Origin: Flavobacterium sp. UMI-01 | GTDB taxonomy: Bacteria; Bacteroidota; Bacteroidia; Flavobacteriales; Flavobacteriaceae | Direction of reading: 5' to 3' | Length of the DNA: 64,000 nucleotides | Assembly (NCBI RefSeq): GCF_019656315.1 | Contig: NZ_BPLU01000006.1 | Span: forward strand, 124,001-188,000 | Part shown: piece by piece, positions 1,831-24,499 of the stretch | Layout: each line of letters opens with the position of its first letter | Position numbering within the stretch: position 1 is the stretch's first letter | The notes under the pieces: generated by a model | Database searches by the model: none | What the model saw: only the letters and a program-made list of their open reading frames with translations | What the model was told of the DNA's origin: nothing | Program-made: the position numbers and the translations under genes

Positions 1831-4800
1831 ATGAGCTCAAAATTTACTGAATACAAAGGACTTGACTTACCTAAGGTAGCGTCAGAAGTTCTTGATTTTT
1901 GGAAGAAAGAAAATATATTTGAAAAAAGTGTAACTACTAGAGAAGGAAACGCACCTTACGTTTTTTTTGAAGGACCTCCTTCGGCAAATGGACTGCCAGG
2001 AATTCACCACGTAATGGCACGTGCGATCAAAGATATTTTTTGTAGATACAAAACTCAAAAAGGGTATCAAGTAAAACGTAAAGCAGGTTGGGACACCCAT
2101 GGTTTGCCAGTTGAATTGGGAACTGAAAAAGAATTGGGAATCACCAAAGAAGACATTGGAACTAAAATTTCAGTAGCGGAATACAACGAAGCTTGTAAAA
2201 AAACCGTCATGCGTTATACCGATGTATGGAACGACCTTACTGAAAAAATGGGGTATTGGGTAGATATGGAGGATCCATACATTACCTATAAATCCAAATA
2301 TATGGAGTCGGTTTGGTGGTTATTGAAACAAATCTACAACAAGGATTTGATGTACAAAGGCTACACCATTCAGCCGTATTCTCCAAAAGCAGGAACAGGA
2401 TTATCCTCTCACGAAGTAAACCAACCAGGGTCTTACCGTGATGTGAGTGATACTACCATTGTAGCGCAGTTTAAAGTCCTATCCCCAGCCCTTTCCAAAG
2501 GAAAGGGAGATGGTGTGGAAAATTCCATTGAAAAAGCTTTCGGTCTTGTCTCCCCTCCTTTGGAGGGGTCGGGGGAGGATTTTCATATTCTAGCATGGAC
2601 GACTACTCCTTGGACTTTGCCATCTAATACCGCTTTGACTGTAGGTCCAAAAATCGATTATGTTTTAGTTAAAACTTTTAACCAATATACATTTGAGCCA
2701 ATCCAAGTGATTTTGGCCAAAAACTTAGTGGGTAAACAATTTGGTAAAACCTATTTTGCTACTGAAGAAGCTGCTGATTTTGAAAATTACAAAGCAGGAG
2801 ACAAGAAAATACCTTATCAAATTGTTGCTGAAGCAAAAGGTGCCGATTTAGTAGGCATTCGTTACGAACAATTATTGCCTTTGGCTTTGCCATACCAAAA
2901 TCCAGAAAATGCATTTAGAGTGATTTCGGGAGATTTTGTTACCACTGAGGACGGAACAGGGATTGTACATACTGCCCCTACTTTTGGTGCGGATGATGCC
3001 AAGGTGGCCAAAGAAGCTACACCAGAAGTTCCACCCATGTTAGTTTTGGATGAAAACAGCAACCCTGTGCCTTTAGTCGATTTACAAGGACGATTTGTAA
3101 ACGGATTGGGTGATTTATCTGGAAAATACGTTAAAAACGAATACTACAACGAAGGTGAGGCTCCTGAACGTTCGGTAGATGTAGAAATAGCTATTCGATT
3201 AAAAGAAGAAAACAAAGCCTTTAAGGTTGAAAAATACGTGCATAGTTACCCACATTGCTGGCGAACAGACAAACCGATTTTATACTATCCACTAGATTCT
3301 TGGTTTATCAAAATCACAGAAGTTAGGGATCGAATGTTTGATTTGAACGAAAACATCAACTGGAAACCAAAAGCTACTGGAGAAGGGCGTTTTGGGAACT
3401 GGTTGAAAAATGCTAACGATTGGAACTTATCCCGCTCAAGATATTGGGGAATTCCATTACCCATTTGGAGAACCGAAGACAAACAAGAAGAAATTCTGAT
3501 TGGTTCTGTTGAGGAATTATACAACGAAATTGAAAAAGCGATTGCAGCTGGTGTTCAATCATCCAATCCTTTCAAAGGATTTGAAGTGGGGAACATGGCG
3601 GAATCCAATTACGATTTGATCGATTTGCATAAAAATGTGGTCGATGCGATTACGTTAGTTTCTGCTTCGGGCAAACCCATGAAACGTGAAGCCGATTTGA
3701 TTGACGTTTGGTTTGACTCAGGAGCAATGCCGTATGCCCAATGGCACTATCCTTTTGAAAACAAAGATTTAATAGACAATAACAAATCGTTCCCAGCTGA
3801 TTTCATCGCGGAAGGAGTTGACCAAACGCGCGGATGGTTTTACACTTTGCACGCTATTGGAACTTTGGTTTTCGACAACATTGCTTACAAAAATGTAGTT
3901 TCAAACGGATTGGTTTTAGATAAAAACGGGCAAAAAATGTCTAAGCGATTAGGCAATGCTGTTGACCCATTTGAAACTTTAAAAGAGTACGGTCCAGATG
4001 CTACGCGCTGGTACATGATTGCCAATGCAAATCCTTGGGACAACTTAAAATTCGACATTGAAGGCGTGGCCGAGGTAAGACGAAAATTCTTTGGAACCCT
4101 TTACAACACCTATTCTTTCTTTAGTTTGTATGCCAATATTGATGGGTTTACACACGAAGAAGCAGAGGTGCCTTTACAAGAAAGACCTGAAATTGACCGT
4201 TGGATTTTATCAGAACTACATAGTTTAATCAAGATTGTAGATGAAGCCTATGCTGATTATGAGCCTACTAGAGCCGCTCGTGCTATTTCTGATTTCGTTC
4301 AGGAAAACCTGAGCAACTGGTACGTGCGTTTGTGTCGTCGTCGTTTTTGGAAAGGCGATTACGCACAAGACAAAATTGCAGCTTATCAAACCTTATATAC
4401 CTGTTTGTTGACTGTTAGTAAATTAAGTGCTCCCATAGCGCCTTTCTTTATGGACAAGCTTTACAGAGACTTAACTTTGGCAACACAAACAGAAAAATTC
4501 GATAGTGTACATTTGGCGGAATTTCCAAAATACGTTGAAAACTTTGTTGATAAATCGTTGGAGAGCAAAATGGAGAAAGCACAGACCATTTCATCACTGG
4601 TTTTATCACTGCGAAAAAAGGAAATGATTAAGGTGCGCCAACCATTGCAAAAGGTAATGATTCCAGTACTTGACGAGCGTCAGAGGGGCGAAATTGAAGC
4701 AGTTTCTGAGTTGATAAAAGCGGAGGTAAACGTTAAAGAAATCCAACTTTTAGACGATGCTTCTGGGATATTGGTAAAACAAATTAAACCTAATTTTAAA

Positions 4801-24459: not shown

Positions 24460-24499
24460 AAAAGGCGTTTTAGAAATTCTAAAACGCCTTTTTGTTTTT
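24460..24499. terminator. Terminator after the aldose epimerase gene
   Basis: A perfect 15-bp inverted repeat has arms AAAGGCGTTTTAGAA and TTCTAAAACGCCTTT. It lies about 30 bases beyond the epimerase stop, with T runs on both sides, so it can act in either direction. Confidence 0.8.

Follow-up and report, generated by a model that had tools for sequence, protein, structure and literature searches.

The gene for isoleucyl-tRNA synthetase (ileS) in a 64,000-nucleotide stretch of the Flavobacterium sp. UMI-01 genome (contig NZ_BPLU01000006.1, positions 124,001 to 188,000; hereafter the window) contains a short in-frame segment framed by two GC-rich palindromes. This segment is probably a nuclease-less member of a family of unspliced homing elements that are bounded by palindromes, stay in the reading frame of the host gene and use tolerant loops of proteins. 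With slightly less assurance, we consider it likely that such elements make up a splicing-free homing class spread throughout Bacteroidota, in which palindrome-bounded DUF559 nucleases reside permanently and in frame as domains of enzymes that are conserved and in part essential, chiefly in one loop of the leucyl-, isoleucyl- and valyl-tRNA synthetases (LeuRS, IleRS and ValRS). Coding palindromes, including those of the ileS segment, would then be scars that persist after the nuclease has been lost.

Both hairpins reported in an earlier sequence-only reading of the window were confirmed, as was their position in the open frame of ileS ahead of the WTTTPWTLPSN motif (Table 1). The left one, CCCTTTCC-AAA-GGAAAGGG, has a perfect 8-bp stem, and the right one, CCCCTCC-TTT-GGAGGGG, a perfect 7-bp stem; they had been described as lying back to back, but 44 nt separate them. 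Each hairpin forms the core of one copy of a ~30-nt GC-rich repeat; the two copies are inverted, with outer arms CCTATCCCCAGCC and GGGGTCGGGGGAGG and a spacer of ~40 nt. The ileS frame is open throughout the segment, and the encoded peptide, VLSPALSKGKGDGVENSIEKAFGLVSPPLEGSGED, directly precedes FHILAWTTTPWTLPSN. The ~33 residues that the same reading took to be foreign are repeat-derived and foreign to the synthetase, 33 being an upper figure, as the core of the segment may be native or older. The product of ileS contains the Pfam families tRNA-synt_1, Anticodon_1 and DUF5915, and its closest solved structures are isoleucine--tRNA ligases. Its alignment to one solved IleRS (8c8w) stops at residue 212 and restarts at 217, and the insert therefore falls in a short tight turn ahead of the WTTTPWTLPSN strand. 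We take this turn to be the start of the editing (CP1) region of IleRS, and the motif itself presumably corresponds to ATTRPET in valS and FTTRPDT in leuS.

The 64-kb window, with a GC content of 35%, has only four distinct hairpins with a stem of at least 7 bp and at least five G/C in it, among them the ileS pair. In a stricter search, the rule of which counts just one of the two real ileS hairpins, first-order Markov resamples contained on average 0.085 hairpins each, and a pair within 100 nt was seen in 0 of 200 resamples. Given these counts, chance is no reasonable source of the ileS pair. The corresponding 109-nt stretch of ileS folds better than shuffled sequences (z of -3.0 as DNA and -4.3 as RNA). 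No further copy of the ileS palindrome was found elsewhere in the window.

We searched the 4.02-Mb UMI-01 genome with a model built from 33 half-repeats, which had been chosen for stems of at least 7 bp and several of which come from this same genome. At least 28 half-copies were retrieved at E<=0.5, a lower bound because only 150 of the 690 first-look candidates were scored; the weakest of the 28 (E 0.02-0.33) may be chance matches. Eight of them lie in frame within genes: ileS and valS have a pair each, leuS a pair and a single half, and polA a single half. The remaining 20 are intergenic or touch the edge of a gene. A complete DUF559 domain (Pfam E 2.4e-33) lies within the leuS doublet, and the frame of 1186 amino acids (aa) stays open to its left and right. 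The inserts in ileS, valS (ValRS was recognised by its motifs) and leuS occupy corresponding places, just before TTTPWT, TTRPET and TTRPDT, respectively. The sole other DUF559 match in the UMI-01 genome is a free-standing gene flanked by sequences that, judged by eye, resemble decayed palindromes. A plain DNA search for the palindrome yielded two places in this genome and one pattern search four (control, none); a second pattern search yielded eight places, with 17 for its reversed-pattern control, so that weak matches prove nothing. At two of these eight places, in rpoC-like and obgE-like genes, no palindrome is present.

DUF559 domains (PF04480) inside host genes are not peculiar to UMI-01. 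A match was found in 62 of the 121 genomes sampled from the genus, and a hand tally, which leaves out matches in short unfetched frames, gave 42 embedded domains in 33 of the 121: 12 in the CP1 region of leuS and one at a second leuS site, 11 in metH before the B12 domain and three in its activation domain, seven in a UvrD-type helicase gene, five in recG and three in a type ISP restriction gene. A further 24 of the genus domains read are free-standing. Large frames with a weak PF04480 match (L097-L100) were left out of the embedded count, and L076, which overlaps L092, was removed. At the order level, 93 of 395 genomes and 34 of 108 genera have a match at E<=1e-15, adding hosts in which DUF559 lies inside the gene (ileS at a second site, hsdR, Eco57I-type and chorismate synthase genes) or at one end of it (histidinol dehydrogenase and HemD). 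In a wider scan, the query of which was built from embedded copies and is hence biased toward them, the best 80 of 556 confirmed candidates all carried titles of Bacteroidota in the wide sense (one being Ignavibacteriaceae) and contained 83 domains, 69 of them embedded, eight free and six near the end of a longer frame (some at contig ends). PF04480 as such is not confined to this phylum, for matches were also obtained in Caulobacter and Corynebacterium, two of the 14 control genomes.

The frames that contain embedded copies measure 317-1758 aa and are uninterrupted by stops. The Pfam matches at E<=1e-5 in 17 proteins (13 DUF559 hosts, one free-standing DUF559 protein and three palindrome-only hosts) included no Hint self-splicing domain, in which the elements differ from inteins. 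An internal start codon for DUF559 was considered and rejected, the Met of GYMTGG varying across hosts (by eye). No phage or plasmid carrier was found: the 40 plasmid records retrieved were all <60% identical, the ten genera named among them are not Bacteroidota, and just three phage records were retrieved. A structure model of LeuRS with DUF559 was poor (mean pLDDT 63.7), and its palindrome-coded linkers (residues 307-320 and 441-455) were of low confidence. Some genes contain two DUF559 domains at two in-frame sites (L092, the leuS of G016, and L309 and L313 in metH).

The palindromes recur at the ends of the embedded domains. In the genus and order sets together, 59 of 71 embedded copies have a hairpin of at least 5 bp at the left end and 56 at the right end (means of 20 mononucleotide shuffles, 18.7 and 8.85); one of at least 7 bp occurs in 34 and 25, respectively (shuffle means, 1.2 and 0.55). 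In the best-80 set of the wider scan, the ends were read in six loci. By eye, stem and tail covary by subfamily (TTTCC/ATAGG, TCTCC/TGAGG and CCTCC/GGGAGG), and three inner stem columns show compensating changes, with 25 double-change cells against 6.2 after shuffling, in half-repeats that had been chosen for stems of at least 7 bp. A second DUF559 subfamily occurs in type ISP restriction genes (L085, L095, L096 and L167), where the palindromes carry another tail (CCCCTCC..GGAGGGGTGTCC..GGACGGGG). Since three ISP copies group with free-standing genes in the genus tree, the embedding habit may have arisen twice.

The catalytic motif (xDF + ExDGxxH) is intact in 66 of the 71 embedded copies, and the invariant residues of DUF559 are D44, F45, E55, D57, G58, H61 and D70. 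The ratio of nonsynonymous to synonymous divergence (dN/dS) has a median of 0.23 and a maximum of 0.48 over 254 within-site pairs with dS of 0.05-2, partly near saturation, indicating purifying selection, which is looser than that on the host flanks in most of the pairs listed. A profile of 67 domains matches the structures 3hrl (E 1.4e-29) and 3r3p, the catalytic domain of the homing endonuclease I-Bth0305I (E 3e-7). An AlphaFold model of DUF559 (pLDDT 83.8) gave the same two matches in Foldseek (3hrl, 9.5e-6; 3r3p, 2.5e-4, TM 0.68/0.73), and the fold match to Vsr was weak (E 0.06).

In the tree of 66 genus domains, a single group of 39 (support 97/94) unites all copies from leuS, metH, helicase and recG genes, with the ISP copies elsewhere, and the site labels need eight changes where the minimum is seven. 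In a tree of 179 domains, made quickly from few columns and with many unresolved forks, they need 28 changes (minimum 12; 112.7 when shuffled). Copies therefore follow their insertion site, as homing elements do. The leuS genes of L082 and L090 differ little in the flanks (dN 0.016) and much in DUF559 (dN 0.395); for L055 and L082 the values are 0.026 and 0.039. Different nucleases at one site in sister hosts favour repeated invasion or replacement.

The same sites may be found empty, short or filled in related genomes. The valS doublet of UMI-01 adds 20 aa to a linker that is 21 aa long when empty in relatives. Of 259 genomes searched, 253 matched in valS; in the best 30 loci, read singly, palindromes are present in nine (for example YKI-LSPAPSEGEGADMLISPPSEGLGE-EYLTV, some loci having one good half hairpin) and a 21-aa linker such as YKIEGSEEFLTV in 19. 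At the site of this doublet, the valS genes of L334, L345 and L360 harbour DUF559 (L345 being cut by a contig end). In leuS, for which 30 of the 115 matching genomes were read, the linker measures 18-36 aa (once 49 aa) in 26 loci and, with DUF559, 156-175 aa in four. The second leuS site, after IKNIFN, contains a single palindrome in UMI-01 but a full DUF559 flanked by palindromes in G016. In the ileS of G723, a short doublet at the site of the window segment is accompanied by a full DUF559 at another site of the gene. The closest counterpart of the window segment is the ileS of L314 (Bacteroidales UBA5266), in which DUF559 lies exactly at the same linker with hairpins TCTCCCCAAAGGGGAGA and TCTCCCCCTTGGGGGGAGA at its ends, in the order AQF-KISSPSKSPQRGDLQ...DUF559...KVSPLGGDLEGAYLL-AWTTTPWT; the left border of the UMI-01 doublet, AQFK, is present in this gene as well. 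Loops in leuS of L209, L210 and L212 contain coding repeat peptides similar to VIASEAKQS, which we take to resemble another dispersed repeat, and the ileS of G684 (L374) has a further in-frame segment of ~90 aa (residues ~320-412) to which the DUF559 profile gives no match.

Within the genus, the ileS query matched 388 of 398 genomes; among the matches listed, 76 span the whole query and the others cover just its first 30-37 residues. A GC hairpin of at least 5 bp occurs at least once in 21 of 29 loci read from the best 30, which is not a genus frequency, the loci having been ranked by likeness to the window. For a broader comparison, 58 of 60 loci were read (L022 and L186 were left out) and four duplicates removed; in the resulting 54 rows, partly window-like by choice, the position holds several linker types and not the conserved sequence that would have made the segment native to IleRS. 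A linker with an ENTVxKAFGL core is present in 26 rows (30-46 aa), most of them with palindromes, a short linker in 16 (21-24 aa) and other linkers in 12 (28-42 aa).

Table 1. Features of the ileS gene and its palindromic segment in the 64-kb window. Both half-elements were among the sequences used to build model R1.
Feature	Position	Strand	Basis
ileS, isoleucyl-tRNA synthetase, 1153 aa	1831..5292	+	open reading frame; ATG 1831 and TAA 5290-5292 checked
Palindrome-bounded doublet insert, residues ~217-249	2479..2578	+	hairpins, linker comparison, left border AQFK
Left half-element, TTTCC-stem/ATAGG-tail subfamily, hairpin 2489-2507	2473..2509	-	model R1, E 5.7e-11
Spacer coding core VENSIEKAFGL	2511..2549	+	similar core in Flavobacterium ileS genes of the same linker type
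Right half-element, CCTCC-stem/GGGAGG-tail subfamily, hairpin 2552-2568	2549..2585	+	model R1, E 1.8e-7
WTTTPWTLPSN motif adjoining the insert	2596..2628	+	codons read in the ileS frame

A full member of the family consists of a palindrome, a DUF559 reading frame (Vsr-like, of the EDxHD/PD-(D/E)xK type) and a second palindrome in inverted orientation, and the host frame runs through all three without a stop. We propose that such a member would be translated together with the host enzyme as one more domain, with no need for splicing. The nuclease would cut the insert-free allele near the insertion point, and repair from the occupied allele would copy the insert in (homing), the palindromes acting as ends or as recombination points. 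Being in frame and rich in codons for Gly, Pro and Ser, the palindromes could also serve as flexible linkers. Once the nuclease is lost, what remains would be either a pair of palindromes separated by a short spacer or a single palindrome. The former is the arrangement in ileS and valS of UMI-01, where the doublet would descend from a DUF559-bearing form, and the latter that at the second leuS site and in polA of the same genome.

Several observations weigh against this proposal. The main uncertainty concerns the origin of the palindromes, which could be genuine termini of the element or an older repeat colonised by DUF559 genes; with 20 of the 28 half-copies extragenic or at gene edges and devoid of DUF559, they may be an older, independent repeat that DUF559 has used. 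A few of the end hairpins are not of the GC type, other embedded copies lack a GC hairpin, and the catalytic motif departs from the consensus in five of the 71 (L087, L093, L094, L151 and L165); copies without an end hairpin are perhaps eroded. The window doublet combines halves from two different subfamilies, and in the ileS gene of L187 both places are taken by another repeat family (TTCGACAGGCTCAG-type). DUF559 at the linker of the window segment was seen in no Flavobacterium ileS, the one case being the Bacteroidales contig, and its domain is nearest to free-standing copies and far from all, including the other synthetase inserts. The ENTVxKAFGL core is not recognisable as a remnant of DUF559 and remains without palindromes in L190, L191 and L193-L195, so that this part of the linker may be native or predate the present palindromes. 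Finally, in a tree of 54 rows built from the flanks of ileS without the linker, the linker types need 17 changes where the minimum is two. The linker has therefore often been replaced, gained or lost, and, as its types interleave, these events are indistinguishable; a single clean insertion in ileS was rejected as unprovable, the types being interleaved and the core persisting where palindromes are gone.

How far do these points favour other explanations? The doublet might be a passive element of the REPIN or Rickettsia type, moved in trans by a tyrosine (Y1/RAYT) transposase, with DUF559 unrelated and only by chance flanked by the same repeat. Two inverted REP-like units with a spacer are indeed the plan of REPINs (PMC3116915), most half-copies are intergenic or at gene edges and lack DUF559, and the UMI-01 genome has five Y1_Tnp matches, four of which exceed the family cut-off. 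We nevertheless regard this explanation as unlikely. The CCCC-type palindrome is absent from all five Y1_Tnp loci (~1.5 kb on each side), one of which has palindromes of another sequence, and no link to RAYT was seen at these loci of the genome, a result that allows for action in trans; moreover, the in-frame DUF559 domains carry end hairpins far above chance at sites that also hold short doublets. One Y1 transposase frame (L045, G000 C37:214073-214429) has an internal TAA and stands beside palindromes of its own (GAGGGACTGAAAGTCCCTC), a different repeat system.

Less likely still is that unrelated coding repeats simply gather in a tolerant loop, the palindrome being immobile and spread by ectopic gene conversion. 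The tight turn of 8c8w into which the insert falls, the mixed subfamilies of the doublet and the other repeats found in these loops, namely that of L187 in ileS and another linker made of CAACACCC tandem repeats in valS of L238 and L248, would all fit. This leaves unexplained, however, why an in-frame DUF559 should keep its active site intact and be under purifying selection, why it recurs in metH, recG and helicase genes and why copies cluster by site. The RNA folding score of the ileS stretch and the covarying stem columns, the latter from halves selected for stems, could also point to a hairpin that acts in the ileS mRNA (through stability, pausing or attenuation) and that selection maintains for its RNA structure. 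The occurrence of the same palindromes in unrelated genes and between genes, their loss in the five core-keeping relatives and their absence from the short-linker ones make this highly improbable.

To our knowledge, the palindromic elements of Rickettsia, to which the sequence-only reading had likened the segment, carry no nuclease. The Rickettsia elements reside in protein genes, the enzymes tolerate them and the identity of the repeats fades with time (PMC6649704, PMC2635572). The parallel stands as an analogy, in that both appear to be in-frame palindromic inserts, with the frame open and the gene kept in many genomes; as a picture of a merely passive insert it falls short, since like palindromes here also bound an in-frame endonuclease domain and recur at fixed sites. 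REPINs, too, are inverted doublets of short palindromes with a spacer that can fold into a hairpin, yet they are described as extragenic and tied to RAYT genes (PMC3116915), whereas eight of the 28 half-copies in UMI-01 are coding and none of the five Y1 transposase loci carries the repeat.

The closest published case may be ShiLan, an HNH homing insert in a phage DNA methylase gene (PMC11855218). It shares with the present elements a lack of stops in the host frame and, as it appears, of intein or intron features, and it encodes a homing endonuclease, as they probably do; it is thought to be retained as a protruding segment. According to that account, however, its endonuclease is out of frame and the phage gene is called non-essential, whereas here a Vsr/EDxHD-type DUF559 is in frame, mostly bounded by palindromes, in conserved bacterial enzymes and accompanied by short forms devoid of the nuclease. 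The EDxHD catalytic domain of I-Bth0305I (3r3p) is homologous to DUF559 by profile and fold, but the protein is described as long and multi-domain (PMC3943268), in contrast to the bare ~105-aa in-frame host domain of DUF559. With EDxHD/Vsr-like homing endonucleases the embedded copies share a patchy presence at fixed sites (leuS, valS) and relatedness by site. VsrA of Caulobacter, a DUF559 protein of the PD-(D/E)xK superfamily like those studied here, is reported to be needed for the DNA damage response in a mutant, which its authors explain by double-strand breaks; it differs in having its own gene and a proposed role in mismatch repair (PMC12907096). In the open-licence literature, we found no description of DUF559 inside host enzymes or of this palindromic repeat.

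In the usual account, self-splicing introns and inteins free homing endonucleases to invade conserved genes (PMC3943268). The same kind of nuclease appears here unspliced in conserved genes, by way of loops that tolerate a domain. If so, these elements would suggest a testable way in which core enzymes acquire domains and linkers from selfish DNA, would account for the coding palindromes of these bacteria and would mark out naturally tolerated insertion sites in LeuRS, IleRS, ValRS, MetH and RecG. They would also call for caution, as in-frame 'extra domains' of annotated synthetases may be parasites.

Copies of the repeat outside coding sequences adjoin housekeeping genes (G000 C8:98811-98910, C26:34913-34949, C26:45328-45364, C7:125913-126038, C34:54364-54472 and C12:55718-58443; loci L260, L261, L263, L268-L270, L274, L278, L281, L283 and L285), and several occupy the gap that separates a stop codon from the start of the following gene. 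Their neighbours, named by eye, include hisG-hisD, metF (with the repeat before it), sulfite reductase, atpG, nuo and arg genes. An ATG often follows within a few bases of the end of the purine-rich tail GGAGAGGAAAAA, as if the tail were a ribosome-binding region. The window also contains a perfect 15-bp hairpin of terminator-like appearance, AAAAGGCGTTTTAGA..TCTAAAACGCCTTTT, at positions 24460-24492.

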